Shown: positions 11,148 through 63,681 of the stretch, piece after piece
Numbering within the stretch: position 1 is the first letter of the stretch
Layout: every line of letters starts with the position of its first letter
From: Sphingomonas sanguinis
GTDB taxonomy: Bacteria > Pseudomonadota > Alphaproteobacteria > Sphingomonadales > Sphingomonadaceae
NCBI RefSeq assembly: GCF_019297835.1
Contig: NZ_CP079203.1
Span: forward strand, 2,780,501-2,844,500
Direction: 5' to 3'
Length of the DNA stretch: 64,000 nt
Notes under the pieces: model-generated
Seen by the model: the letters and a program-made list of their open reading frames with translations, nothing else
Database searches by the model: none
Told to the model about the DNA's origin: nothing
Program-made: the position numbers and the translations under genes

Positions 11148-12050
11148 TTACGCGACGGTCTTCATCTTCTCGGCGGCGACCGCGACGCGGTTGCTCAGCG
11201 GCTGGGCGATCTCGCCGGCCAGCTTCATCATGTGCTCGGTCGAGCGCGAGGTTTCGGCGACCATCGAGTCGAAGGCCGAGCGGGCGAAGTCCGACTGGAG
11301 CTTCATGAACTCGGTCGGCGACTTGACCGACGACAGCGTCTGCAGCGTCTGGGTCGCGGTCTCGAAGGTGCGCTTGGCATAGTCGGCCGCGCCCTGGCCC
11401 AGCGTCTCGGCGCCCTTGGCGGCGATCTTCGACGATTCTACGACGGCTTCCAGATTGGCCTTGTTGAAGGCGATCATGTCTTCGAACAGCTTGGCGCTCT
11501 TTTCCATGCCGGCCTGGGTGCGGGCCTGGGCGTCGCCGAAGAAGGCCTGGGTCTTGGCGGCGGTGTCCTTGGCGGCGTTTTCGATGGTGCTCGTGGCGTC
11601 CATGATGATGTCCTTGGGCTTTGAGTCCGCCGAAACCGCGGCGGTCGGGGAAGAAATCTCGGGCTTGGCCGGTTCGGCAGCCGCCGGAGCGACAGGCTGC
11701 GTGACCGACGCGGCGGGCTTGGCCGCCTCGACCGGCTTCGCCGCGGGGGCAGGAGCCTCGACTACCGGCTTGGCCGGAGCCTTGGGCGCCGGAGCGGGCT
11801 TCGCCACCTTGGCGACCACGGGGGCGGCCACCGGAGCGGCGGACTTTTCGGCGGCGCTGGCCGTAGAGGTCAGCGGCAGGCCGGGGCTGGCCGATGCGGC
11901 GGGCGCCACCGTCTTGGCGACGGGCGGCGTGACCGCAGGCTTGGGATCGGAGGGGAGACCGGGCAGCGTCTTGGCGGCGACCGGCTTGGTCACGCGACGA
12001 GGCTTGGCCACCGCCTTGGCGGCGGGAACGGTCGGCTTGTCCTTGTCCAA
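11148..12050 (-). CDS. Phasin-family protein with long Ala/Pro/Lys-rich N-terminal extension
   Basis: Coats polyhydroxyalkanoate granules. The phasin domain is the C-terminal half, about residues 155-300: an amphipathic helical stretch with AFFGDAQARTQAGMEKSAKL, FEDMIAFNKANLEA, and SPTEFMKLQSDFARSAFDSM. Residues 1-150 are a low-complexity Ala-Pro-Lys-Val extension like those of PhaF-type phasins, which can contact DNA. No normal ATG fits. A TTG at 12050 is preceded by GGGAGA at good distance and keeps the reading frame open. An internal ATG near residue 152 would give a short phasin. It lies downstream of phaC. Confidence 0.85.
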   Translation of the reverse strand: MDKDKPTVPAAKAVAKPRRVTKPVAAKTLPGLPSDPKPAVTPPVAKTVAPAASASPGLPLTSTASAAEKSAAPVAAPVVAKVAKPAPAPKAPAKPVVEAPAPAAKPVEAAKPAASVTQPVAPAAAEPAKPEISSPTAAVSADSKPKDIIMDATSTIENAAKDTAAKTQAFFGDAQARTQAGMEKSAKLFEDMIAFNKANLEAVVESSKIAAKGAETLGQGAADYAKRTFETATQTLQTLSSVKSPTEFMKLQSDFARSAFDSMVAETSRSTEHMMKLAGEIAQPLSNRVAVAAEKMKTVA

Positions 12051-12065
12051 CAGCACTCTCCCGAT

Positions 12066-12127
12066 TTGTTGCGCTGCACAATAGCGATTCGCGGCAACGG
12101 AATCAAGTCTATTGTGCAGTGCAACAA
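12066..12127. promoter_or_regulatory. Paired inverted repeat between phaC and phasin, candidate PhaR operator
   Basis: TTGTTGCGCTGCACAATAG at 12066-12084 and its reverse complement, with one mismatch, at 12109-12127. The 24-base spacer makes the two sites about 43 bases apart centre to centre. Each arm has the TGC-rich partially symmetric look (TTGCRCTGCA) of sites bound by the PHA regulator PhaR in other alphaproteobacteria. The sites lie directly upstream of the phasin start and just past the phaC stop codon. The sequence identity of the arms is seen; the regulator is inferred. Confidence 0.65.
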
Positions 12128-12135
12128 AACCGAAA

Positions 12136-13851
12136 CTAACGCTGTCTGACGTAGCGTCCGGGCGCTTCGTCGAGGGCGGGCAGCGCGCCTTCGCCCGGCA
12201 CCCGCGCACCCGTGACCGCGACGGTCGCGGAGTCGCGCTGGCGTAGCCAGGCGGCCCAGTCCGGCCACCAGCTTCCCTTGGTCTCGGTCGCGCCCGCGAC
12301 GAACTCGCTCAACGTGGCGGCGGGCTGGTCGTTGGTCCAATATTGATATTTGCCTGCCGCAGGCGGGTTCACCACGCCCGCGATATGGCCCGACCCGGCC
12401 AGCACGAAGCGCAAGGGGCCGTTGAACGCCTCGGTGATCTTCCACACGCTTTCGGGTGGGGCGATATGGTCCTCGCGGCCCGCCTGGACATAGGCGGGGG
12501 TGGAAACCTTGGTCAGGTCGAGCGCGACGCCGCCGACGCTCATCGCACCGGGCGTCATCAACAGATTGTCGCGGTACAGGTCGGTCAGATAGGCGAGGTG
12601 CCATTTGGCGGGCAGGTTGGTGACGTCGCCGTTCCAGTGGAGCAGGTCGAACGGCACATAATCGCGCCCCAGCAGATAGTTGTTGGTGACGTAGTTCCAG
12701 ATCAGGTCGCGCCCGCGCAACAGGTTGAACGTCATCGCCAGATAGCGGCCGTCCAGATACCCCTCGGGCGACAGCGCGGCGATCATCTTCAGCTGCTCGT
12801 CATCGACGAAGTGCAGCAGCTCGCCCGCCTTGGAGAAATCGACCTGCGCAGTGAAGAAGGTGGCGCTGGCGACTTTCTCCGCCTCGCCTTTCGCCGACAG
12901 CCAAGCCAGCGTCGCGGCCAGCGTCGTGCCCGCCACGCAGTAACCGACGGTGTGGACAGACTCGACATCCAGCAGATCGCGCACCGTATCGATCGCCTCG
13001 ACCTGCGCGGTAACGTAATCGTCCCAGATCACGTCCTTCATCGTGGCGTCGGCGGACTTCCACGACACCATGAAGACACTGAACCCCTGATCGACCAGCC
13101 ATTTGATGAGGCTCTTCTCGGGCGCGAGGTCGAGGATGTAGAAGCGGTTGATCCAGGGCGGAAAGATCACGATCGGCACCGCCGCCACCTGCTCGGTGGT
13201 GGGGGTATAGTGGATCAGCTCGTACAGGTCGGTGCGCTTGACCACCTTGCCCGGCGTGGCGGCGAGATTGCGCCCCACCTCGAACGCGCGCGAATCGCTG
13301 TGGGTCAGCTGCCCGCGACCCAGGTCGGCCAGCATGTTCTGCAGGCCTTTGAGCAGATTCTCGCCGCGCGTCTCGACGATCTTGTCGAGCACCTCCGGGT
13401 TGGTCGCGGGAAAGTTGGTCGGGCTCATCGCGTCGATGAACCCGCGCGCGGCGAAGCGAATCTGTTCCTTCTGCTTCGGGTCCACGCCCTCCAGCGCGTC
13501 GACCCCGCGAAGCATATGGTCGGAGATCATCTGATAGCTTTGCCGAATCCAGTCGAAGAGCGGCGACTGCCACTGCTCGGCCTTGAACCGGCGATCGGGC
13601 TTGGGGGCCACGCTCGGCTCGGCGGCGGGGTCGACGAAGCGCTGCCACAGCGCCATCGAATCGGACCAGAAGTCGCGGACCCGGCCCATGGTGGCCGGGT
13701 CGTTGAAGCCCGGCACCACCGGCATGCCCTCCGGCGGCGGCGAGAGCGCGGCCTCCATCATCATCTGCTGCGCCCGGCCCATCACCCAGGTCCAGTGTTG
13801 CAACTCTTCCAGCGTGGGAAGGGTGGGGGCTGTCGCGGGGGCGGCCGTCAT
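12136..13851 (-). CDS. phaC: Class I poly(3-hydroxyalkanoate) synthase
   Basis: Polymerises 3-hydroxyacyl-CoA into PHA at the granule surface. The 571-residue length fits class I. The N-terminal PhaC domain is about 80-250, then an alpha/beta hydrolase fold. The lipase-like box GYCVAG carries nucleophile Cys305, with Asp461 in AGREDHIAP and His489 in GSGHIAG completing the triad. The conserved VPIVIFPPWINRFYILDL precedes the fold. The start at 13851 is supported by GAGAGG; upstream in-frame sequence is antisense to alaC. The phasin gene follows 85 bases downstream, so storage polymer and granule coat are made together. Confidence 0.96.
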   Translation of the reverse strand: MTAAPATAPTLPTLEELQHWTWVMGRAQQMMMEAALSPPPEGMPVVPGFNDPATMGRVRDFWSDSMALWQRFVDPAAEPSVAPKPDRRFKAEQWQSPLFDWIRQSYQMISDHMLRGVDALEGVDPKQKEQIRFAARGFIDAMSPTNFPATNPEVLDKIVETRGENLLKGLQNMLADLGRGQLTHSDSRAFEVGRNLAATPGKVVKRTDLYELIHYTPTTEQVAAVPIVIFPPWINRFYILDLAPEKSLIKWLVDQGFSVFMVSWKSADATMKDVIWDDYVTAQVEAIDTVRDLLDVESVHTVGYCVAGTTLAATLAWLSAKGEAEKVASATFFTAQVDFSKAGELLHFVDDEQLKMIAALSPEGYLDGRYLAMTFNLLRGRDLIWNYVTNNYLLGRDYVPFDLLHWNGDVTNLPAKWHLAYLTDLYRDNLLMTPGAMSVGGVALDLTKVSTPAYVQAGREDHIAPPESVWKITEAFNGPLRFVLAGSGHIAGVVNPPAAGKYQYWTNDQPAATLSEFVAGATETKGSWWPDWAAWLRQRDSATVAVTGARVPGEGALPALDEAPGRYVRQR

Positions 13852-13971
13852 CGCATCCTCTCGTTCGTATGAGCCCGTCTTAGCGTCAGGATATTGCGCC
13901 GTCATGTCGGGTCGCATCGGGAAACGAAAGAGGCTAAGGTCCGGGTCCCAAATCGTTACACAGAGGGACCC

Positions 13972-15183
13972 ATGTCCGAAGAGTTCTACCGCATCAAGCG
14001 CCTGCCGCCCTATGTCATCGCCGAAGTCAACGCGATGCGGGCGGCGGCGCGCGCGGGCGGCGAGGACATCATCGATCTGGGCATGGGCAATCCCGACCTG
14101 CCGCCGCCGCCGCACGTCTTGGAAAAGCTGATGGAGGTGATCCAAAAGCCCGACGCGCACGGCTATTCCCAGTCCAAGGGCATTCCCGGCCTGCGCCGCG
14201 CCCAGGCCAATTACTATGGCCGCCGCTTCGGCGTCGACCTCGATCCCGAGACCGAGGTGGTCGTCACCATGGGATCGAAGGAAGGGCTGGCGTCGCTGGC
14301 GACCGCGATCACCGCGCCGGGCGACGTGATCCTGGCGCCCAATCCCTCCTATCCGATCCACACCTTCGGCTTCATCATCGCGGGCGCGACCATCCGCGCG
14401 GTGCCGACGACGCCCGACGAAGCCTATTTCGAAAGCCTGGAGCGGGCGATGCACTTCACCGTGCCGCGCCCCTCGGTACTGGTGGTCAACTACCCGTCCA
14501 ACCCGACCGCCGAGACGGTGGACCTCGCTTTCTACGAACGACTCGTGGCCTTCGCGAAGAAGCACGAGCTGTGGGTGCTGAGCGACCTCGCTTATTCCGA
14601 GCTTTATTATGACGGCAATCCGACGCCTTCGATCCTTCAGGTGAAGGGCGGCAAGGACGTCGCGGTCGAGTTCACGTCGCTGTCCAAGACCTATTCGATG
14701 GCGGGCTGGCGCATCGGTTTCGCGGTCGGCAACAAGAAGCTGATCGCGGCGATGACGCGGGTGAAGTCCTATCTGGACTACGGCGCCTTCACGCCGATCC
14801 AGGCGGCGGCCTGCGCCGCGCTCAACGGGCCGCAGGACATCGTCGAGAAAAACCGCCAGCTTTATCACAAGCGCCGCGACGTGCTGGTCGAGAGCTTCGG
14901 CCGGGCGGGCTGGGACATCCCGAGCCCTAAGGCCTCGATGTTCGCCTGGGCGCCCTTGCCCCCGGCGCTGGCGCATCTCGGCAGCCTGGAGTTTTCCAAG
15001 CAGTTGCTGACCGAGGCCAAGGTCGCGGTCGCGCCGGGCGTCGGTTACGGCGAGAATGGCGAAGGCTTCGTCCGCATCGCGCTGGTCGAGAACGAGCAGC
15101 GACTCCGTCAGGCGGCGCGCAACATCAAGCGCTATCTCCAGTCGATGGGCGTCAACACGCCCGGCTCGGCCAAGGCGGTGTAA
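13972..15183 (+). CDS. alaC: Alanine aminotransferase, AlaC/YfdZ family
   Basis: PLP-dependent class I/II aminotransferase of 403 residues, very close in sequence pattern to E. coli AlaC (glutamate-pyruvate transaminase). Shared stretches are FYRIKRLPPYVIAEV, GEDIIDLGMGNPD, TMGSKEGLASLA, LAPNPSYPIH and SLSKTYSMAGWRIGF, with the PLP lysine at 239. It is sometimes auto-annotated as LL-diaminopimelate aminotransferase, but the AlaC pattern fits better. The start follows AGAGGGA. It is divergent from phaC with about 120 bases between, leaving room for promoters of both. Confidence 0.88.
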   Translation: MSEEFYRIKRLPPYVIAEVNAMRAAARAGGEDIIDLGMGNPDLPPPPHVLEKLMEVIQKPDAHGYSQSKGIPGLRRAQANYYGRRFGVDLDPETEVVVTMGSKEGLASLATAITAPGDVILAPNPSYPIHTFGFIIAGATIRAVPTTPDEAYFESLERAMHFTVPRPSVLVVNYPSNPTAETVDLAFYERLVAFAKKHELWVLSDLAYSELYYDGNPTPSILQVKGGKDVAVEFTSLSKTYSMAGWRIGFAVGNKKLIAAMTRVKSYLDYGAFTPIQAAACAALNGPQDIVEKNRQLYHKRRDVLVESFGRAGWDIPSPKASMFAWAPLPPALAHLGSLEFSKQLLTEAKVAVAPGVGYGENGEGFVRIALVENEQRLRQAARNIKRYLQSMGVNTPGSAKAV

Positions 15184-37846: not shown

Positions 37847-39214
37847 ATGAAGCACATCACCAAGATGGCGAGCGGCGCCGCAGGCCTCGGCCTGACGCTG
37901 TTCGTCGCGCTGCCCGCCTGGGCACAGGACGCCGCCGCGCTCCAATCGCCCGCCACCGCCGCGCCCGCCGCGACGGTGAACAAGGGCGATACCGCCTGGA
38001 TGCTCACCTCGACCGTGCTGGTCATGATGATGATCCTGCCGGGCCTGGCGCTGTTCTATGGCGGTCTGACCCGCGCCAAGAACATGCTGTCCACCATGAC
38101 GCAGATCGGCGCGGCGGCCTGCCTCGCGATGCTGATCTGGGTGATGTACGGCTATAGCCTGGCCTTCGGGCCGGACGTGTCGGGGGGCGCGTCCAACTTC
38201 ATCTCCGGGCTGGGCAAGGCGTTCCTGAAGGGCGTCACGCCCGCCAGCCAGGCGGCGACCTTCACGGCGGGCGTCGAGATTCCCGAATATGTCTTCATCT
38301 GTTTCCAGATGACCTTCGCCGCGATCACCGCCGCGCTGGTCCTGGGTTCGGTGGTCGAGCGGATGAAGTTTTCGGCGGTCATGGCCTTTACCGCGGTGTG
38401 GCTGACCATCGTGTATTTCCCGATCGCGCATATGGTGTGGGCATCGTCGGGCCTGTTTTTCAAGGCGGGCGCCCTCGACTTCGCCGGTGGTACGGTGGTG
38501 CACATCAACGCCGGTGTCTCGGCGCTGGTCGCAGCACTTATCCTGGGCAAGCGCATGGGTTATCCGACCACGCCGATGCCTCCGCATTCGCTGACGCTGA
38601 CCGGCGTGGGCACCGGCCTGCTCTGGGTGGGCTGGTTCGGGTTCAACGCCGGCTCGGCGCTGGAGGCCAATGGCTCAGCGGGTCTGGCGATGATCAACAC
38701 CTTCGTCGCGACCGCGAGCGGCGGCCTGTCCTGGATGCTCGCCGAGCGTCTGGCGGGGCATAAGGGTTCGGCGCTGGGCTTCTGCTCGGGCATCGTGGCG
38801 GGTCTGGTCGCGGTCACTCCGGCCGCTGGTAACTCGGGTCCGTTCGGTGCGATCGTGCTGGGCGCCATCGCCAGCGTGATCTGCTTCTATGCGGTCTCGG
38901 TCCTGAAGCCCAAGCTCGGCTATGACGATGCGCTCGACGCCTTCGGTGTCCATGGCATCGGCGGCATGATCGGCGCGATCGGGACCGCGGTGGTCTATGC
39001 CCCCTCGCTGGGCGGTCCGGGTGCGGCAGACTATGTCATGAGCTCGAAGCTGCTGGTGCAGCTGGGCGCGGTCGCCACCACGATCGTCTGGGCCGCCATC
39101 GGCACCGTCATCGCCATGTATGTCGCCAAGGCCCTGACCGGCCTGCGCGTCTCGAAGGAAGTCGAGCAGGAAGGCCTCGACCTCGGCGAGCACGGCGAGC
39201 GCGCCTACAACTGA
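37847..39214 (+). CDS. amtB: Ammonium transporter
   Basis: A 455-residue inner-membrane channel with a signal-like N terminus (about 1-26, ending PAWAQ) and eleven membrane helices. The twin pore histidines are in PIAHMVWASSG and FGVHGIGGMIGAIG. The Phe-gate region and DTAWMLTSTVLVMMM at the start of helix 1 are as expected, as is the C-terminal GlnK-contacting tail after GLRVSKEVEQEGLDLGEHGE. Start follows GCAAGGGGGG. Confidence 0.96.
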   Translation: MKHITKMASGAAGLGLTLFVALPAWAQDAAALQSPATAAPAATVNKGDTAWMLTSTVLVMMMILPGLALFYGGLTRAKNMLSTMTQIGAAACLAMLIWVMYGYSLAFGPDVSGGASNFISGLGKAFLKGVTPASQAATFTAGVEIPEYVFICFQMTFAAITAALVLGSVVERMKFSAVMAFTAVWLTIVYFPIAHMVWASSGLFFKAGALDFAGGTVVHINAGVSALVAALILGKRMGYPTTPMPPHSLTLTGVGTGLLWVGWFGFNAGSALEANGSAGLAMINTFVATASGGLSWMLAERLAGHKGSALGFCSGIVAGLVAVTPAAGNSGPFGAIVLGAIASVICFYAVSVLKPKLGYDDALDAFGVHGIGGMIGAIGTAVVYAPSLGGPGAADYVMSSKLLVQLGAVATTIVWAAIGTVIAMYVAKALTGLRVSKEVEQEGLDLGEHGERAYN

Positions 39215-49947: not shown

Positions 49948-50021
49948 TGCCCCGTCGTCTAAAGGTAAGACCACGGACTCTGACTCCGTTAATTGAGGTT
50001 CGAATCCTCACGGGGCATCCA
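49948..50021 (+). tRNA. tRNA-Gln (anticodon CUG), CCA encoded
   Basis: A cloverleaf can be drawn: acceptor TGCCCCG / CGGGGCA, D arm GTCT-AAAGGTA-AGAC, anticodon arm ACGGA-CTCTGAC-TCCGT with CTG, variable TAAT, T arm TGAGG-TTCGAAT-CCTCA, discriminator T at 50018 and CCA at 50019-50021. Everything downstream looks accessory, so the 3' end is a likely integration site. Confidence 0.95.
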
Positions 50022-50132
50022 GATTTTTGTCCTCTGCCAATAAGCAGAGGCCGTGCTGACAATCCTTTTGGCTTCGAAGCAGCCTAGCACACGCCACTGA
50101 CCCTACTCCATCTCGGGCTCGCAAAGGAGCTC

Positions 50133-50867
50133 ATGATGCGAAAGTCAGTCGTTGAAACATGTGCCGCGAGCGCTGAGACTGCCAATCGAGAGGCTTGGCC
50201 GCAAACTGATGGTATTCGACCCGAGGTAGTCGTGCGTCTCGACCTCGTCGGCGACGTCGTCCGCCTGATCCGCGCCATCGAGTGCGGTGGCGAGTCCGTC
50301 GTTGAGGTCGAGGCCTGGCGCAGCTCATATGATAGCCTGGAGCAGGCTGCCGATACGCATGAGGCACTGAGCTCTCGCGAGGACAAATTCTCCTATTGGA
50401 GCGTCGGCGCCCTGGTCTTCGGTCCGGAGTGGGTGACCCAGGCTACGACCGGCATGGTCGAGGAGTTCATCTGGCAGCGTAACCAGGAACGCGAGCGCGT
50501 CGCACGCGAGCTTGAGAAGGAACGCGTCCGACTGGAGGAGGAGCAGGAGGCCGAGACCAGCATCTCCGTCTACTTCCGAGAGAAGAAGGGCACCTACCTC
50601 CTCACCCTCGAGCGCGGTAGCAACGAGGCGGAACCTGTCTGGTCCATCAGCTTCGAAGAATCCTGGGAGCGCGACCGCTTCTGGGACTGGCTCGGCTGGC
50701 AGAGCGAACGCTTCGAGGAGTTCGCCGAGTTCATGCGGGACGGCTCCCGCCTCGATCTCGAACGCAAGCTGCTGCGCGAGATGCTCGTCACGGAGCAGTC
50801 AGTGAAGAAGCAGGGCCTCGGCTCCGGCGGTCGCCGCCCCCTCCGCTTCTGGCGGGGAGAACTCTGA
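50133..50867 (+). CDS. Unknown coiled-coil protein, first gene of the ubiquitin-like operon
   Basis: A 244-residue protein of no recognised family. Residues 1-105 are mixed alpha/beta (IRPEVVVRLDLVGDVVRLIR, FSYWSVGALVFGPEWVTQ). Residues 108-145 form a charged coiled coil (EFIWQRNQERERVARELEKE). Residues 148-215 appear beta-rich then aromatic-helical (YLLTLERGSNEAEPVWSISF, RFWDWLGWQSERFEEFAEF). No protease or nuclease motif is seen. AAAGGAGC precedes the ATG. It starts 111 bases after the tRNA, and its TGA shares bases with the ATG of the next gene. Confidence 0.75.
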   Translation: MMRKSVVETCAASAETANREAWPQTDGIRPEVVVRLDLVGDVVRLIRAIECGGESVVEVEAWRSSYDSLEQAADTHEALSSREDKFSYWSVGALVFGPEWVTQATTGMVEEFIWQRNQERERVARELEKERVRLEEEQEAETSISVYFREKKGTYLLTLERGSNEAEPVWSISFEESWERDRFWDWLGWQSERFEEFAEFMRDGSRLDLERKLLREMLVTEQSVKKQGLGSGGRRPLRFWRGEL

Positions 50868-51829
50868 TGGTCGTCGCTCCGATGGGGCCGAGCATCGCCG
50901 ATGCGCAGCAGCTGATGATCGCGGAGTACCCATCCATGATGGTGGCACATCCCATGGGCGATCACGGCGTACCGCTCGGCCTCGATCGCCCGCTGGCCCT
51001 GTTCGGTGGGGGCCACAGGCTCGCCCCATCCGGGATGCCCTCCGCATTGGGGATCGATCACGTCCCCGGGCTGAGGCAGTTCGTCGCGGAGGCATGTCGG
51101 CGCCGTTCGTTGAGTGGCTTCGACGGCTACCACCAGCCGCCGCTCGCGCTCCTCGGTCAGAACGGCGTCGGCAAGGGCTTCGTGGCCCACTGGATCGCGC
51201 GCAACGCCGGCGTCCCGCTCTTCCGGGTGCCGGTAGGTGCCGACTTCCGCAACGAGCCCTCCGCCGGCCAGGACGTCGAGCGGAGGATCCCGCTGCTGCC
51301 GGTCGTCGCCATGGCTTCCGCCCGCTGCGCCAACCCGCTCATCGTGCTCGAGCTCGACGTCGACAAGCCGATCTCCGACGAAACCGAACGTACCCTCGAG
51401 TCGATGATCGACCCTCGCGTCAACTCGCGGTGGATCGATCGGGATCAGCAGACGATCCTCGACCTGAGCCAAGTCTCGTGGGTCGTCGAGGTGCGGGGCC
51501 GGCGGTTCCCCCACGGCGGAGTGCGGAACCAGGACGAGCCGCCCGTAATCGAGGCCGTCCTTCCACCGCGGCTCGAAACGCTCATCCAGGCCTGGGGCGC
51601 CATGTTCCGCCTCGAAGCGACCCGCGACGTCAGCGATCTTCGCGTGCTGGACGTCGCGATCGAAGTGTGCGCCGCCTCGATGGTGACGGATCCCGAAGCA
51701 GTGGCCGACGTGCATGCCGCTTTGCTGGAGGTCAAAAAGCCCTGGCCCCACCATTCCGCCTTCGGTGACCTCGTCAGCGCAGCGAAGTGGGCGCTCTCCC
51801 GCCATCTCGGCACCGATGATCTTCCATGA
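50867..51829 (+). CDS. Lon-like AAA+ domain protein with degenerate Walker motifs
   Basis: A 320-residue protein. From residue 91 it follows the order of a Lon-protease AAA+ module: LALLGQNGVGKGFVAHWIA (P-loop 97-104, but Gly instead of Thr/Ser after the Lys), NPLIVLELDVDKPISDETER (Walker B region; Lon has LLDEIDK), LESMIDPRVNSRWIDRDQQT (Lon: LLEVLDPEQN) and LDLSQVSWVV (Lon: YDLSKVLFI). There is no Ser-Lys peptidase domain. ATP hydrolysis is doubtful; it may bind a partner or nucleotide only. The similarity is judged by eye. It is translationally coupled to the coiled-coil gene. Confidence 0.6.
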   Translation: MVVAPMGPSIADAQQLMIAEYPSMMVAHPMGDHGVPLGLDRPLALFGGGHRLAPSGMPSALGIDHVPGLRQFVAEACRRRSLSGFDGYHQPPLALLGQNGVGKGFVAHWIARNAGVPLFRVPVGADFRNEPSAGQDVERRIPLLPVVAMASARCANPLIVLELDVDKPISDETERTLESMIDPRVNSRWIDRDQQTILDLSQVSWVVEVRGRRFPHGGVRNQDEPPVIEAVLPPRLETLIQAWGAMFRLEATRDVSDLRVLDVAIEVCAASMVTDPEAVADVHAALLEVKKPWPHHSAFGDLVSAAKWALSRHLGTDDLP

Positions 51830-51913
51830 GCGAATGTCTCCACCGGCAACGTGCTCGGGCTCCGCCTCGGATGCGCGAAGATGACAATCCTCGTCTCAAG
51901 CAAGGAAGCAGAC

Positions 51914-52228
51914 ATGAACTACAGCACCGAACACGACAGCACCGACACGGCTCCCGGCCGTTCGTTGACGGTCGCCGACACGAACGGTGGCGCCCGGAAG
52001 ACGATCGTGGTCAACGGACGCGAGCACGCCTTCGTGGGCGACGAGATCGGGTGCGGCGAACTCGCCCGCCTCGCGTTTCCCGCACTCGGCGTGGGGGGCG
52101 ACAGCGCTCTGACCGTCGCCTACGACAATGGACCCGAGGGCGCCCGCCACGGGCTCCTCGCGAGCGGCCGGACGACCCGAGTGCTCAGCGGGCAGACCTT
52201 CAGCGTCAGCGTCTGTGACAAGTCCTGA
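51914..52228 (+). CDS. Single multiubiquitin-type ubiquitin-like protein
   Basis: A 104-residue protein. Residues 1-25 are polar and flexible. Residues 27-104 fit the bacterial multiubiquitin-domain pattern: KTIVVNGREHAF (first beta hairpin), GDEIGCGELARLAFPALG (helix) and ALTVAYDNGPEG, then GRTTRVLSGQTFSVSVCDKS at the end. The family ends F-x-V-x-x-[TC]-D-K-S, as here. There is one domain instead of tandem copies and no C-terminal diglycine. AAGGAAG lies 6 bases before the ATG. It overlaps the E1/E2 gene by 14 bases, so the modifier and its enzyme are made together. Confidence 0.72.
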   Translation: MNYSTEHDSTDTAPGRSLTVADTNGGARKTIVVNGREHAFVGDEIGCGELARLAFPALGVGGDSALTVAYDNGPEGARHGLLASGRTTRVLSGQTFSVSVCDKS

Positions 52229-53396
52229 TCACGAGGTCCGCCGGCTGACCGAGGAGGGCTATTCGGTGGCCCTCCTCGACGGCACGCTGGTCATCTCGCA
52301 CGTCCCGTACGTGCGGGCGGCGGGCAGTGTCGGCCGCGCAGACCTGCTCGTCCCCCTCGCCATGCAGGGCGGTCGCGTCGTCGCGCCCCGCGAGCACCAG
52401 GCGTGGTGGACCGGCAGCGCGCCGAAGGAGGCCGACGGCGGCCCGCTGAAGGGGGTCTCCATCCAGCACGTCGCCCGCGCGTGCGTCGCAGGCATGCCGC
52501 CGGCTATGATGCTCTGCGGGCGGATACGTGGCCGCGAGTTCCGCGACCATCTCGAGTTCGTGGCGACCTACGTGGCACTCCTCGGCGCACCCGCCGCCGC
52601 CCTGGACCCGAGGGCCACCGCATGCACGCGAAGGAGACCCTTGCCAATGGCGACGGACGTCGGTCCCTTCGCCTATGCGGACACGGCTTCGTCGCGAGCG
52701 GCGCTCGGCGCGGTCAACGCCGCCGTCAAGGGTCAGAGCATCGGCATCATCGGTCTCGGTGGTACCGGCTCTTACGTGCTCGACCTCGTGAGCAAGTGCG
52801 CGGTGGACGCGATCCACCTCTTCGACGATGACGTGTTCGAGCAGCACTCGGCCTTCCGCGCACCCGGTGCCGCGACGATCGACGACCTCCGTAGCCGGTG
52901 CCGGAAGGCCGACCACTACGCATCGGTCTATCGCAGCATCCACCGGCACGTCTTTTCGCACGCGGTGCGGATGGAGCCGGGGACGCTTCCGCTCCTCGAT
53001 CCCCTGGACTTCGTCTTCCTCTGCATTGACGATGCCGAAGCGAAGCCTCCCATCCTGCGACGTCTCGCCGAACGCGGGATACCCTTCGTCGATGTCGGCA
53101 TGGGTCTCCATGCGACTGATCGCGGCGTCGGCGGCGCGGTCAGGACTACACTCGTCGAACCGGGCGATCAGTCGACGGTCAGCCGCATCCCCACCGTCGG
53201 GCACCCTGGTGGAGTCTACGCCACGAACATCCAGACCTGCGAACTCAACGCGCTCAATGCGGCGTTGGCGGTGATCGCGTGGAAGCGGGCGTGCGGCTTC
53301 TACGCGTCCAACCGTCGCGAAGGGAACGGCGTCTACGTCGTCGAGGAGGGAAGGCTGTACGGCGAGGAAGCCGATCCAAAGGGTGGAGAAGCGTGA
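52215..53396 (+). CDS. E2-like/E1 (ThiF) fusion enzyme of a ubiquitin-like system
   Basis: A 393-residue protein. Residues 1-150 match the E2-like region found fused to ThiF in bacterial multiubiquitin operons (DUF6791 type): a long strand pair (VALLDGTLVISHVPYV), then HQAWWTGSAPKEADGGPLK and FVATYVALLGAPAAALDPRA. Cys90 and Cys101 are candidate thioester cysteines. Residues 170-393 are the adenylating domain: IGIIGLGGTGSYVLDLVS (nucleotide loop 180-185), LFDDDVFEQHSAFRAPGA, DFVFLCIDDAEAK and the late IQTCELNALNAALAVIAWKR, with Cys342 as possible E1 cysteine. Start is GTG at 52215. The following ORF overlaps by 4 bases. Confidence 0.75.
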   Translation: MTSPDHEVRRLTEEGYSVALLDGTLVISHVPYVRAAGSVGRADLLVPLAMQGGRVVAPREHQAWWTGSAPKEADGGPLKGVSIQHVARACVAGMPPAMMLCGRIRGREFRDHLEFVATYVALLGAPAAALDPRATACTRRRPLPMATDVGPFAYADTASSRAALGAVNAAVKGQSIGIIGLGGTGSYVLDLVSKCAVDAIHLFDDDVFEQHSAFRAPGAATIDDLRSRCRKADHYASVYRSIHRHVFSHAVRMEPGTLPLLDPLDFVFLCIDDAEAKPPILRRLAERGIPFVDVGMGLHATDRGVGGAVRTTLVEPGDQSTVSRIPTVGHPGGVYATNIQTCELNALNAALAVIAWKRACGFYASNRREGNGVYVVEEGRLYGEEADPKGGEA

Positions 53397-53881
53397 ACAG
53401 ACCGTTGGGCGGTGGCCGCGATGGTCATCACTGGCATCCTGCCGGGTCCGGTCCTCATGGACCGAAGCGGGATCTGGGCCCTGCCGCGCGATACGGATCG
53501 TCTCCGATCTGGGCACGCCCCTTCCTCGATTGGCGGCTGGAGGACCAGTTCACGATGGAAGCGATCGAGATCGCGTCCATCCACGCCGAAGCGGCCGTGC
53601 AGCCCTACCTTGCAGCGCGTAAGGAGCGCCGCTTCGAAGGCGAGTCCGCCGTCGAACTACGGTTCTTCGATATTCGGACGTTCACATCCTTTCGTCGGAT
53701 CCGTTCGGTGATCACGGCGGGAAGGGCGGACGTCTGGTGGCTGGTGCGTCGATGGGGGGTAGCCGGAGGCGATGGGGGCTTGGACGAGGCGATGTGCGCC
53801 GCCGCCGCGCGGTACCTGCTTGCCGACTTCGCCGGCCTGCTGTCGGCTGCGGTCGTGACCCGCATAGGGAAACGTCGGTGA
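53393..53881 (+). CDS. Unknown last gene of the ubiquitin-like operon, possibly frameshifted
   Basis: Two reading frames share the signal. In the frame opened by GTG at 53393 (overlapping the TGA of the E1/E2 gene) the second half is protein-like: FLDWRLEDQFTMEAIEIASI, AAVQPYLAARKERRFEGESA, RADVWWLVRRWGVAGGDGG. Its first 35 residues are Gly/Pro/His-rich and odd. In the other frame, from 53418, the first 33 residues look better (MVITGILPGPVLMDRSGIW, ALPRDTDRL) and then degrade. A single -1 shift near 53510 would join the good parts. So it is either a real 162-residue protein, a short one starting at ATG 53554, or a gene with one frameshift. No family recognised. Confidence 0.45.
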   Translation: MNRPLGGGRDGHHWHPAGSGPHGPKRDLGPAARYGSSPIWARPFLDWRLEDQFTMEAIEIASIHAEAAVQPYLAARKERRFEGESAVELRFFDIRTFTSFRRIRSVITAGRADVWWLVRRWGVAGGDGGLDEAMCAAAARYLLADFAGLLSAAVVTRIGKRR

Positions 53882-55835: not shown

Positions 55836-56789
55836 TTAGGAACCGGCGTGCCTGTTGGTCCAGTCGATAGCGCGGCAAGTGGGTGCGCCGCGTCCGCGGT
55901 AGACTTCGGAGCACGCCCACTCCACTTCGAGTTCGCGAGCGTCGTACGGGACGTCACGCCACCACGAGCGTCGCGTGGCGTTCCACCCGTACCCGCGCTC
56001 CTTCAGCTTCTCCCGTGCCGAGAACGGGGCGTCAGAGGCCTCGATCCGCCAGGACGAACGCCGCGCGGAGCTCAAAGCCACGTCCAGCACGGATCGCCCA
56101 GTCGGCAGGACGTGCTCGAGCAGGCGGATGAGGGCGGCGACATCAGTGGCCGCGCTGTGCGCGCTGTAGAACACCCCCGCCTGCATCAGCAGATTGGGCA
56201 GCGATCGCCCCTCGAAGCCCATCGATCGCCAGTCGACCTCCGCGAGCGTACAGATCCAGGGGCGTCCCGCGGCATCGGGCAGACGGCGTTCGCAGAAGGG
56301 AAGGTCGAACCTCGCGTTGTGGGCGACCACGAAGTCGACGTCCATCATGACGCTGGTCGCCTCCGCATCGCAGATCGACCTGCCGGCGACGTCCAGATCC
56401 GAGATGCCCGTGAGACGGGTGATCTCCGGCGCCAGAGGCCTGCCAGGATCCTCGAGCCATCTCCTCGACCGACCAACCTGCAGAATGCGCCCGTCTTCGT
56501 CCGCGACGAAGCGCTGCATGGCGAGCTCGATGACGCCATGGCGGTGCGGATCGAGCCCTTCGGTCTCCACGTCCAACGCGAGCCCGTGCCACGTCGCGGC
56601 GGCTCCGCTGCCGCCGAACGATCGACGAGGACGATCCGGGACCAGTCGACGAAGCACGCGGAAGTCGGGATGGCCATCGAGAGCGGCGGCGGCGACCTCG
56701 GGACCTCCGCATGCCGCCAGCACCTCACGATGCCTCGAGTCGATATGAAATTCCGGAGCGCGCGGCGCTCCGGCGTGCGAACCGGACAT
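55836..56789 (-). CDS. DnaQ-like 3'-5' exonuclease domain protein
   Basis: A 317-residue protein with a DEDDh exonuclease core: Exo I LALDVETEGLDPHRHGVIEL (Asp73, Glu75), Exo II FVVAHNARFDLPFCERR and Exo III YSAHSAATDVAALIRLL (His and Asp). A preceding segment of about 65 residues and a C-terminal segment (SAREKLKERGYGWNATRRSW, WRDVPYDARELEVEWAC) recur in a subgroup of alphaproteobacterial exonucleases outside the replicative epsilon subunit. The start at 56789 follows GGAGGAC. It lies inside the accessory region and is followed upstream by a small unknown gene. Confidence 0.83.
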   Translation of the reverse strand: MSGSHAGAPRAPEFHIDSRHREVLAACGGPEVAAAALDGHPDFRVLRRLVPDRPRRSFGGSGAAATWHGLALDVETEGLDPHRHGVIELAMQRFVADEDGRILQVGRSRRWLEDPGRPLAPEITRLTGISDLDVAGRSICDAEATSVMMDVDFVVAHNARFDLPFCERRLPDAAGRPWICTLAEVDWRSMGFEGRSLPNLLMQAGVFYSAHSAATDVAALIRLLEHVLPTGRSVLDVALSSARRSSWRIEASDAPFSAREKLKERGYGWNATRRSWWRDVPYDARELEVEWACSEVYRGRGAPTCRAIDWTNRHAGS

Positions 56790-56879
56790 CGCCCGTCCTC
56801 CTTCGTCTCTCTGGAATGGTGGTGGGGAGTCTGACCGGCGAAAATGCTGCACCCAGGCCGTCACGTGGGCGGATCCACG

Positions 56880-61072: not shown

Positions 61073-63370
61073 TCAGCGGACGACGAGATTGAAGAAGGCG
61101 GCGACATCGGACGCACCGCGGACATGGCCGGCGTCGAAGGCACGGGCGACGCCGAGCCGCAGCGTCGAGGTGGATGCCAGCGCAGTCGACCAGCCGAGCT
61201 CGAGATCAAGCTCCCGCGCGGCTGGCGACAGATCGAAGGTCCGGCGCTCTTCGGTGAGTGCGCCCGACATCAGGTCATAGGCGACAGGCACCATCAGCGA
61301 CGCCCGCGCCCGTTCGACGCGCAGGGGCGACGACAGGCCGAGCGTCGCCAGCCCGCCGAGCAGTGGACGCGCACCCTCCACCGCGAAGGCGGTGCTGACG
61401 ATGCGACCGTCGAAACGGATCGGACCATCGCCGCCACTGTCGACGCTGGTGGTACCCGTCGTAGCACGCGCGGTCAGCGAGACGCCCGCCACGGTGCGGT
61501 TGGCGACGAGAGTGGCGAGCGTCGTCCGACCGCCACGCAAGCCCGATGCAGCAACGCCACCGCCGAACCCTAGCACGCGGCCGTATTCGGTGAGGTCGGT
61601 CACCTGCAGGCCGATGCCAAACGGGGTGGCGAAGGTGACACCGCGCAGGTCCGCGCTGCGGTCGCGCGACGACCCGGATGAGAACGATGCCGACCAGCCG
61701 CCGCCGCTCCACGACGACCACAGGCCAATGGGCTGGCCGACCACGCCGCGTAGGGGGGAGCCGGTGAGCGAGAAGCCACCGCCGACTGCGGTGTTCGCGC
61801 CGATTGTCACCGTCTGCCCGACTGCGGGCGAGAAGCTCGCCACCGCCGGTCGGTTTGTTGTCGCGCCCTGCCACGGGCCGACCACGTCCTGCCCGAAGAA
61901 GCCCAGCCGTGCTTCGCTCGCCGACCAGCTGCGGACGGGCAGCGGATCAACCGACCCGGTCATGCCGCCTGCCAGCAAGCCCGATGACCGTGCGCGGATA
62001 CCCGTCGTGCCCATCATCGCGAAGTTGCGGCCGTAGCGATCGAACACCGTCATGCTGCCTGCCGCCGTCGCGAGCATCGACGCTGTCGCCGACCCACCGA
62101 ACGGTGCGGACACGTCGAGCGACGAATAGCGGGCGAGTACCGCCTGGGCCGCCGCGAACGAAGACGCCGGTGCCTGCACCTGCATCGCCTTCTCGACGTT
62201 GAGCAGCCCTGCGCCATAGATTGGATCGACACCGGGGGCGCCCATATCGGTGGCGGTGTCGAGCAGGATGCGGGCGATCGCCTTGCCGCCGAGCTGCGGC
62301 CAGTACTGTTTCAGCAGCGCCGCCGCCCCGCCGACCGCCGGCCCCGCGAAGCTGTTGCCGGTGACGATGGTGATGCTGCCGTCCTTGTCGACCACATGCA
62401 CGTTCACCCCCACCGCTGCGATCATGCGATCGGCGAGCACGCCTGCGTTGCCATTGGCGGAACGGGGGTTGCCGTTGGCGTCCACCCCGATCGCGAACAG
62501 GAACCAGTCGGCGTTGGCGCGGTCGCTGCCGACGAGGGTCTCGGCAAACTGGCCGGCGAAGCTGTCCTTGCCGGTCTCATTCGCAACGGACTCGACCAGC
62601 AGCCGGTCGGCGGCGCGCAAGCCATCCATCGCCGCGCGCTGTTCTGTCGCGACCTGTCCGCCGCCAAAGCCGTTCAGCGACATCACCGTGACGAACGCGC
62701 CCTTGGCGACGGCTTCGCGCAGCGCCGGGGCAATCAGACCTGCGTTCGGCTGCATGCCCTCGCGGATCGGTGTCGTGCTGCCCGCCGTCACGCCGTCCAG
62801 GTCCGGCCCCGTCACCTTGAGCGCGAGGATAGTCGCACCCGGGGCCATTCCCTGCATGCCCGTACCGTTGCGCGCCGCCGCGGCGATCGAGGCGACCTTG
62901 CTGCCATGGCCATCATTGTCGTCGATCGCGAAGCGCGGCACCGTCTCGCCCGGACAGGTCGCGCAGCGGGCGATGCGCTGCTCGAAGCCGGTACTGTCGG
63001 CCGAGATGCGACCGGCGAACTCGGGCGAGGACCGCGCGATGCCGCTGTCGATGACCGCGATCGTCACGCCCTTGCCGGTGATCCCGCGATCATAAGCATA
63101 GGCCGCCTTCGCGCTGACGACGGCGGCTGACGCTTTGTACTCGGCGCTATCGGCAGCCGTCGGCGTCGGCGCTGGCGTGGGAGAAGGTGATGGTGTCGGC
63201 GTTGCAGCCGGAGTTGGTGAAGGCGAACCGGTTGGCGGCGCATTCCCGCCGGGCGTGTTCACGCCACTGCCGCCTCCGCCGCATGCGGCAAGCAACAGCG
63301 CCGCCGTTGCCGCAGTCGAATTCCTGATGATGGCAAGCCGCCTGCTGCGGCAACCGTCGTATGCACCCAC
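61073..63370 (-). CDS. Subtilisin-like (S8) autotransporter serine protease
   Basis: A protein of about 765 residues secreted to the cell surface. A signal region ending in a lipobox-like ALLLAAC is followed by a Gly and Pro/Thr-rich linker (TPTPSPSPTPAPTPT). The S8 protease domain has the triad Asp in TIAVIDSGIARSS, His in DDNDGHGSKVASIA and Ser in VTGNSFAGPAVGGAAALL. The C-terminal 280 residues look like an autotransporter beta barrel (GGGFSLTGSPLRGVVG to FFNLVVR). A GTG at 63370 preceded by GGGGG is preferred; an ATG at 63430 has no ribosome-binding site. First gene of a four-gene operon. Confidence 0.85.
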   Translation of the reverse strand: MGAYDGCRSRRLAIIRNSTAATAALLLAACGGGGSGVNTPGGNAPPTGSPSPTPAATPTPSPSPTPAPTPTAADSAEYKASAAVVSAKAAYAYDRGITGKGVTIAVIDSGIARSSPEFAGRISADSTGFEQRIARCATCPGETVPRFAIDDNDGHGSKVASIAAAARNGTGMQGMAPGATILALKVTGPDLDGVTAGSTTPIREGMQPNAGLIAPALREAVAKGAFVTVMSLNGFGGGQVATEQRAAMDGLRAADRLLVESVANETGKDSFAGQFAETLVGSDRANADWFLFAIGVDANGNPRSANGNAGVLADRMIAAVGVNVHVVDKDGSITIVTGNSFAGPAVGGAAALLKQYWPQLGGKAIARILLDTATDMGAPGVDPIYGAGLLNVEKAMQVQAPASSFAAAQAVLARYSSLDVSAPFGGSATASMLATAAGSMTVFDRYGRNFAMMGTTGIRARSSGLLAGGMTGSVDPLPVRSWSASEARLGFFGQDVVGPWQGATTNRPAVASFSPAVGQTVTIGANTAVGGGFSLTGSPLRGVVGQPIGLWSSWSGGGWSASFSSGSSRDRSADLRGVTFATPFGIGLQVTDLTEYGRVLGFGGGVAASGLRGGRTTLATLVANRTVAGVSLTARATTGTTSVDSGGDGPIRFDGRIVSTAFAVEGARPLLGGLATLGLSSPLRVERARASLMVPVAYDLMSGALTEERRTFDLSPAARELDLELGWSTALASTSTLRLGVARAFDAGHVRGASDVAAFFNLVVR

Positions 63371-63681
63371 GCCCGAACCCCCGTTCGCGCGGTACCAGCG
63401 AGCTGATCCCAGCCGGCGGCACCGCCCCATGTGAAAAACGAGGCGGTGCCGGCCCATGAGCCGGGAGGTGACAACCTGCGGTAAGACAGGCGCGAGCGTC
63501 TTTAGGCCCCCGAAGGAGCCCTGGACATGCACGCCCGCTTCCCGGCCGAAGAGATTCGGGCCGGGCTTACGGCTACTTACCGACGAGGTTGTCACGCCTC
63601 GGTCCGCCTGCTGGCGAACGGACCTGCTTTACGCGGAGAGTGTTGACACGATCAATCCGGACGCGAACGTTTTCGCAAGAA
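63371..63681. other. Region between the autotransporter and the right-edge ORF
   Basis: The divergent promoter region of the autotransporter. A possible 39-residue ORF on the plus strand (63527-63646) has GAAGGAG in front (MHARFPAEEIRAGLTATYRR, then GCHASVRLLANGP), and its stop overlaps the possible GTG/TTG start of the next ORF at 63640-63643. This could be a leader peptide, or chance. Confidence 0.35.

Follow-up and report, generated by a model that had tools for sequence, protein, structure and literature searches.

The closest described relatives of the locus analysed here are the multiubiquitin operons classified as type 6e, in which, according to the accessible text of Iyer 2006 (PMC1779556), the E1 carries an alternative N-terminal domain in place of JAB that might act analogously, accompanied by a further metal-binding protein with the motif C-x3-C-x(35-38)-H-x2-C. 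Operons joining a multiubiquitin modifier to a DUF6791-bearing E1 are presumably those also named 'Bub', described in the available portion of another source (PMC13373217) as putative immune pathways whose phage protection is not demonstrated. The cassette studied here lies in a window of 64,000 nucleotides (nt) from contig NZ_CP079203.1 (positions 2,780,501 to 2,844,500) of the 4.37 Mb genome of Sphingomonas sanguinis, and comprises five plus-strand genes 3' of a tRNA-Gln, encoding a partly coiled-coil protein (CC), a Lon-type pseudo-AAA+ protein (AAA), a ubiquitin-like (Ubl) modifier, a DUF6791-ThiF fusion (E1) and the product of a fifth open reading frame (ORF). Judged by sequence, its E1 and modifier fall within the type 6e operons already known, and CC and AAA take the place of DUF6527, a replacement shown by gene content. 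The cassette is tentatively read as a Ubl conjugation operon, forming a CC-AAA branch within the multiubiquitin/DUF6791-E1 family, with CC and a dead AAA choosing the target, a reading to which we give slightly less than an even chance. So far, this branch has turned up in Sphingomonadaceae.

Twelve loci came from a scan of genomes with the AAA alignment and three more from a family search; the order CC-AAA-modifier-E1 recurs in all 15, besides the window, at AAA identities as low as about 31% over the matched segments. As every one of these loci was selected by strong AAA matches, the count says what AAA travels with, and it agrees with the expectation of the original prediction that close AAA homologues adjoin such genes. 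Two of the loci, L006 and L008, differ so little that they may share one source. The CC and AAA genes overlap by 1 or 4 nt in all 15, if the AAA start codon closest to the CC stop is used. Compared with the close relative L002 (Sphingomonas yabuuchiae, the nearest named locus), the ratio of nonsynonymous to synonymous substitution is 0.25 for CC, 0.45 for AAA, 0.13 for the modifier and 0.11 for E1 codons 1-165; together with the recurrence of the four-gene order, these ratios argue that the cassette is more than a chance arrangement.

The exchange with DUF6527 was seen in a survey of 397 Sphingomonadaceae genomes, in which DUF6527 was sought by blastp with four DUF6527 proteins. DUF6791 occurs in 23 of them: the 19 DUF6791 loci without CC-AAA all have DUF6527 near the E1, and the other four, including the window, have CC-AAA and no DUF6527 (0/4). 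CC itself was seen in three of these four short loci, all four genomes being positive by a genome-wide CC search. Regarding the 15 CC-AAA loci, DUF6527 stands beside the E1 in none, and none was found in the window genome. The same four of the 397 genomes, and no other, have AAA matches at E<1e-30 and CC matches at E<1e-60, weaker matches being left uncounted (15 further genomes for AAA, at E>=5e-13, and 16 for CC, the best at 6.4e-9); because the loci of those four genomes went into the CC profile, only its absence elsewhere is independent. In a sample of the class with 367 genomes, CC at E<=1e-8 appears in the window genome alone. Five plasmid regions of the DUF6527 type all carry multiubiquitin, ThiF and DUF6527, with ImmA/IrrE or WYL beside three of them. 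The Rhizobium copy of DUF6527 reads C-x3-C-x35-C-x2-H by eye, which is close to the type 6e metal-binding motif, differing in its order (C-x2-H against H-x2-C), suggesting that DUF6527 is the metal-binding protein of type 6e, just as the alternative N-terminal domain (domain X) of Iyer would correspond to DUF6791. On this reading CC and AAA replace a putative zinc-binding protein, and the simplest role for them would be target choice.

The features are as follows, in positions of the window.

49948-50021, plus strand: tRNA-Gln (CTG), called by ARAGORN, left edge of the variable region.
50133-50867, plus strand: CC, partly coiled-coil protein, 244 amino acids (ORF call).
50867-51829, plus strand: AAA, Lon-type pseudo-AAA+ domain protein, 320 amino acids (ORF call and profile match).
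51914-52228, plus strand: modifier of multiubiquitin type, one domain, 104 amino acids, ending CDKS (ATG start).
52215-53396, plus strand: E1-like DUF6791-ThiF fusion, 393 amino acids (GTG start).
52515-52517, plus strand: codon TGC of Cys101 in the E1 fusion, the Ser/Cys position of DUF6791 (read from the codon).
53393-53881, plus strand: fifth ORF, 162 amino acids, no known family (GTG start).

The five tightly packed ORFs beside tRNA-Gln lie where the original prediction had placed them; the ORFs themselves stand, and one of the gene extents needed correction. The E1 as first listed (422 amino acids) begins too early, and, as family matches start near residue 30, the GTG at 52215 fits. The ATG at 51914 is preferred for the modifier, being the first Met common to all 33 rows of alignment A2 (window included), and the fifth gene would most simply start at the GTG at 53393. 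The genes overlap by 1 nt (CC/AAA), 14 nt (modifier/E1) and 4 nt (E1 stop/fifth ORF), the sole gap being the 84 nt from AAA to modifier, and the GC fraction is 0.668 in the cassette and 0.667 in the window.

AAA had been described from the letters as Lon-like with damaged Walker motifs, and both parts of that description hold. Its profile (alignment A1, 28 rows with the window) matches Lon in the PDB at E 4.1e-9, Lon chains making up the best 32 of the 41 PDB matches, and the alignment runs from ahead of the P-loop past Walker B as far as sensor-1. Walker A (GxxxxGK[ST]) is intact in none of the 41 family members, nor is the 'DE' of Walker B, the three 'DE' strings counted lying beyond the motif. 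In the window clade, Walker A is mostly GxGKG without the Ser/Thr and Walker B lacks its Asp; Arg replaces the Walker A Lys in P0031 as in most other branches, the P-loop is gone in L004 and L034, and Walker B is unrecognisable outside the window clade. The motifs were therefore lost by differing routes across the branches, the protein nonetheless being retained, and the cassette AAA is probably hydrolysis-dead. A Pfam scan matched no protease domain in its 320 amino acids. Besides these motifs, Cys154 in the CANP box is invariant in the 22 pseudo-AAA rows of alignment A3, not in intact cousins. Such cousins are stand-alone Lon-type AAA ORFs, from Sphingomonadaceae (L036, L037) and other Alphaproteobacteria (L044, L069, L070, L072, L073); seven of the eight that were read keep the Walker motifs, the eighth (L071) having Glu-Glu in Walker B, and in the 3.6 to 18 kb covered for each, CC, modifier or E1 was found beside none of the eight. 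The cassette AAA would thus be a pseudoenzyme related to this stand-alone group.

The modifier, proposed to be of multiubiquitin type, was placed there by its profile (alignment A2), whose one PDB match at E<=1 is the multi-ubiquitin domain protein 9CD2 (E 1.2e-8), a protein that also ends in TDKS. Pfam Multi_ubiq is hit at E<=1 by 14 of the 33 rows (best 1.2e-4), and the window modifier alone matched no Pfam model. The terminal residue is Ser in all rows and in all 15 CC-AAA loci, as in 18 of the 19 modifiers of DUF6527-type Sphingomonadaceae loci, where L054 has Ala and the frame of L045 looks shifted. The six final residues include no Gly in the CC-AAA loci (0/15) or in A2 (0/33), but do so in 8 of the 19 DUF6527-type loci. 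When seven modifier/E1 junctions were compared, the modifier end doubled as E1 start codons in the four DUF6791-type junctions with a clear E1 start (window, L012, L033, L035); at the ThiF-only junctions of L003 and L009 it does not code for the E1 start, and the terminal Ser is still present. The modifiers of L012 (10792-11448) and L035 have a long extra N-terminal part, the single Multi_ubiq domain of L012 being C-terminal by Pfam.

The E1 fusion passes the Pfam cut-offs for PF20590 (DUF6791) and PF00899 (ThiF), which, with the gene content, upholds the proposed Ubl conjugation operon; in NCBIfam its best model is PRK06153, at 340 bits, just below the cut-off of 352. The absence of JAB, anticipated from the letters, was confirmed, as the Pfam scan detected none in the cassette (elsewhere in the genome one ORF exceeds the cut-off, 1.7 Mb away, with one more weak match). 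Relatives are numerous, 4524 at E<=1e-10 among 7998 candidates scored. In aligned E1s, GxGGxG, Arg215, Lys231 and Asp272 are invariant and would be the adenylation residues, following the MoeB/UBA1 list in the accessible part of PMC12355090. A structure predicted from 53 sequences (pLDDT 88.7) has, for its ThiF part, Citrobacter BubCD as top fold match, a protein solved with BubB and BubA. The DUF6791 part is predicted as a helix, three or four strands and a helix. This order resembles the E2/RWD layout, and a separate inactive E2/RWD-like gene was not recognised in the cassette. Residues 1-150 of the fusion may have the E2-like fold proposed from the letters. The cassette may have a role in defence.

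Residue 101 of the E1 is Cys in the six CC-AAA fusions aligned (window and five others) and Ser in all 23 DUF6527-type E1s (18/18 from Sphingomonadaceae and 5/5 from plasmids; L045 was excluded because its E1 frame is split). The three full E1s on viral contigs likewise go with DUF6527 and Ser. The 120 listed E1 homologues, out of the 4524, have Cys in 109 and Ser in 11, counted irrespective of gene neighbourhood. Across the 149 sequences only these two residues occur, and His61 is present in 148, with a gap in the remaining one. In a FastTree phylogeny of 95 E1s, retaining every other Cys homologue, all 61 Cys forms make one clade (support 0.993), indicating a single Ser/Cys change, the deeper branches being poorly supported. 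The restriction to Ser or Cys is a better hint of catalysis than the correlation with a clade.

With these elements, four steps can be proposed for the cassette. The ThiF domain, whose putative adenylation residues are present, would adenylate the C-terminal carboxylate of the modifier, ending in Ser and not in Gly. The acyl group may then pass to Cys101 of DUF6791, which would serve as thioester carrier in the role of an E2, the same position being Ser in other branches. CC and the probably hydrolysis-dead Lon-type AAA, as a coupled pair, would recognise or present the target, filling the place of the putative metal-binding protein DUF6527, and the modifier would finally be attached to that target, perhaps in response to stress or phage. 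That the single Ser-to-Cys change switched a serine ester to a cysteine thioester, in step with the swap of DUF6527 for a CC and dead-AAA adaptor, is a more specific proposal and a doubtful one.

The same residues allow another reading of DUF6791, namely as a Ser/Cys hydrolase that replaces the JAB domain fused to the same N-terminal site of other type 6e E1s and removes or trims the modifier, with Ser/Cys101 and His61 as catalytic pair and conjugation proceeding directly from the E1. It would fit the suggestion, in the accessible text of PMC1779556, that the domain standing in place of JAB might act analogously, provided that this domain is DUF6791, as well as the restriction to Ser or Cys and the near-universal His61. 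Furthermore, E1s consisting of ThiF only exist in nine loci (L003, L005-L011, L013), so that DUF6791 is not needed for activation. On the other side stand the E2/RWD-like order of helix, strands and helix, the lack of another recognisable E2 in CC-AAA operons, and the lack of a hydrolase match in Pfam or in the fold lists, although the latter barely covered DUF6791. On balance, the hydrolase is unlikely as the function of this domain, while keeping real weight.

The conjugation reading with a target-choosing CC-AAA pair has its own difficulties. The ThiF-only loci amount to nine of 16 (window included) without DUF6791, hence the second step must differ there; the DUF6791-ThiF form is that of the window, L004, L012, L033, L034 and L035, and the E1 of L002, which also has Cys at position 101, is interrupted beyond about residue 168. 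In addition, the structure search barely covered the DUF6791 part, whose profile gave no PDB match at E<=10, and the split between Ser and Cys is confined to one clade, so that common descent alone could explain the tie between Cys and CC-AAA. No recognisable binding domain was found in CC. A defence match was found beside one locus only (L003), five proteins from three others giving none (four of the 15 loci scanned), and matches of the cassette to the defence library are weak, with E 1e-4 for E1 against E1-E2 models and 0.0087 for AAA against IetA. In L003 (5217-8541), a Thoeris-like ThsB, a split ThsA and a second ThsB-like gene lie directly 5' of the ThiF-only CC-AAA operon. All nine ThiF-only loci also have a divergent gene of about 217 amino acids upstream (L003:8613-9263), regulator-like by eye; it was matched neither in the window nor in the remaining six loci, and the two proteins tested had no Pfam match. 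Concerning L002, the interrupted-E1 cassette at 11846-14822 has a transposase-like ORF further on, as seen by eye.

CC offers fewer clues. In its alignment (A4, 15 rows) the C-terminal half, which ends in G-x-RPLR-x-W-x-G, is conserved and the N-terminal half varies, and its predicted structure (12 sequences, mean pLDDT 76.6) consists of a beta/alpha N-terminal part and a long helix (99-142), with no confident fold match in a structural search. The RPLR of the tail is encoded by differing codons among loci, so it is kept at the protein level. This retention, together with CC and AAA being strictly paired and coupled and with the invariant Cys154 of AAA (22/22), would also suit a system in which CC-AAA is the sole substrate or effector, CC or AAA being switched by attachment of the modifier, like the cyclase that is conjugated in type II CBASS, as stated in the accessible part of PMC10449767. 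However, the length of CC beyond W-x-G varies in A4, which speaks against precise C-terminal chemistry, no toxin-like domain was found, and the final CC residues lie over the likely Shine-Dalgarno of the AAA gene, so that W-R-G-[DE] may merely carry that signal; this arrangement is quite improbable. Finally, an ordinary multiubiquitin operon that merely adjoins an unrelated, translationally coupled gene pair would agree with the large family to which E1 and modifier belong, but is very improbable in view of the order in 15 of 15 loci, the lack of strong CC matches outside AAA genomes, the exclusion of DUF6527 and the Ser/Cys split.

The fifth ORF has a single homologue, behind the E1 of L033 (8621-8977; 31% identity over 107 amino acids), and no Pfam match. 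The stretch left of the cassette, including the tRNA, aligns in ten of ten congeners, and the matches reaching the tRNA stop no more than 13 nt from its end, with the query extending 29 nt beyond it; in all four longer congener stretches blastn similarity ends at 50022-50027, with nothing to the right matching. By synteny, tRNA-Gln is thus the left boundary of a variable region. Against L002, the cassette is retained to 52719 at 96%, the flanking stretches being at 88-92%. Just 3' of the tRNA, a perfect 7-bp inverted repeat (50031-50050) with no T run after it may be a terminator or operator, and another tRNA-Gln, likewise with anticodon CTG, was called at 38593-38662 (70 nt). Seven ORFs scanned right of the cassette have Pfam matches to RNase_T and subtilase and none to an integrase. 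They include an RNase_T-type exonuclease ORF (55836-56864) and, on the minus strand, a subtilase (Peptidase_S8) of 840 amino acids (61073-63595) whose C-terminus looks autotransporter-like by eye.

If the proposed conjugation by way of residue 101 holds, the residue carrying the modifier in DUF6791 pathways would have been found, and the link of Ubl tags with ATP-dependent protein machines, which the accessible text of PMC1779556 described in 2006 as less clear, would gain a bacterial case in which the ATPase acts as scaffold only. The related E1s, having Ser or Cys at one site and differing in one accessory module, form a natural pair for a direct test.

A description of the CC-AAA variant was not found in the accessible literature, the primary Bub reports (Gong 2025, Ye 2026) lying outside the comparison. 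The layout had been thought unlike known ones; that impression stands for CC-AAA in place of DUF6527 and not for the cassette as a whole, which is a branch of a known family. The Bil systems share with it the Ubl and E1 logic, but encode E2 and JAB in genes of their own and expose a C-terminal Gly by cleavage, according to the accessible part of PMC11354881, whereas the cassette has neither JAB nor terminal Gly. With Lon protease it shares the recognisable AAA+ module, from P-loop to sensor-1, without the protease domain and with Walker A and B lost. The stand-alone Lon-type AAA proteins are nearer, having the ANP box and the following Asp...Trp stretch and being too short for a full Lon protease; nevertheless, they possess Walker A and the Walker B acid pair and a longer N-terminal part, with no CC, modifier or E1 match nearby. 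The Citrobacter Bub system (BubA/BubB/BubCD) is close in the ThiF part, for which BubCD is the nearest structure, while the N-terminal part of BubCD is unmatched by the E1 model, no BubB-like gene was recognised and two extra subunits are present here. The closest likeness is to type 6e, today annotated as multiubiquitin, ThiF and DUF6527, with one to three Ubl domains, an E1 with an extra N-terminal domain, overlapping modifier and E1 genes and a plasmid-borne, scattered distribution, from which the cassette differs by adding CC and a pseudo-Lon AAA, by lacking DUF6527 and by having Cys instead of Ser at residue 101.

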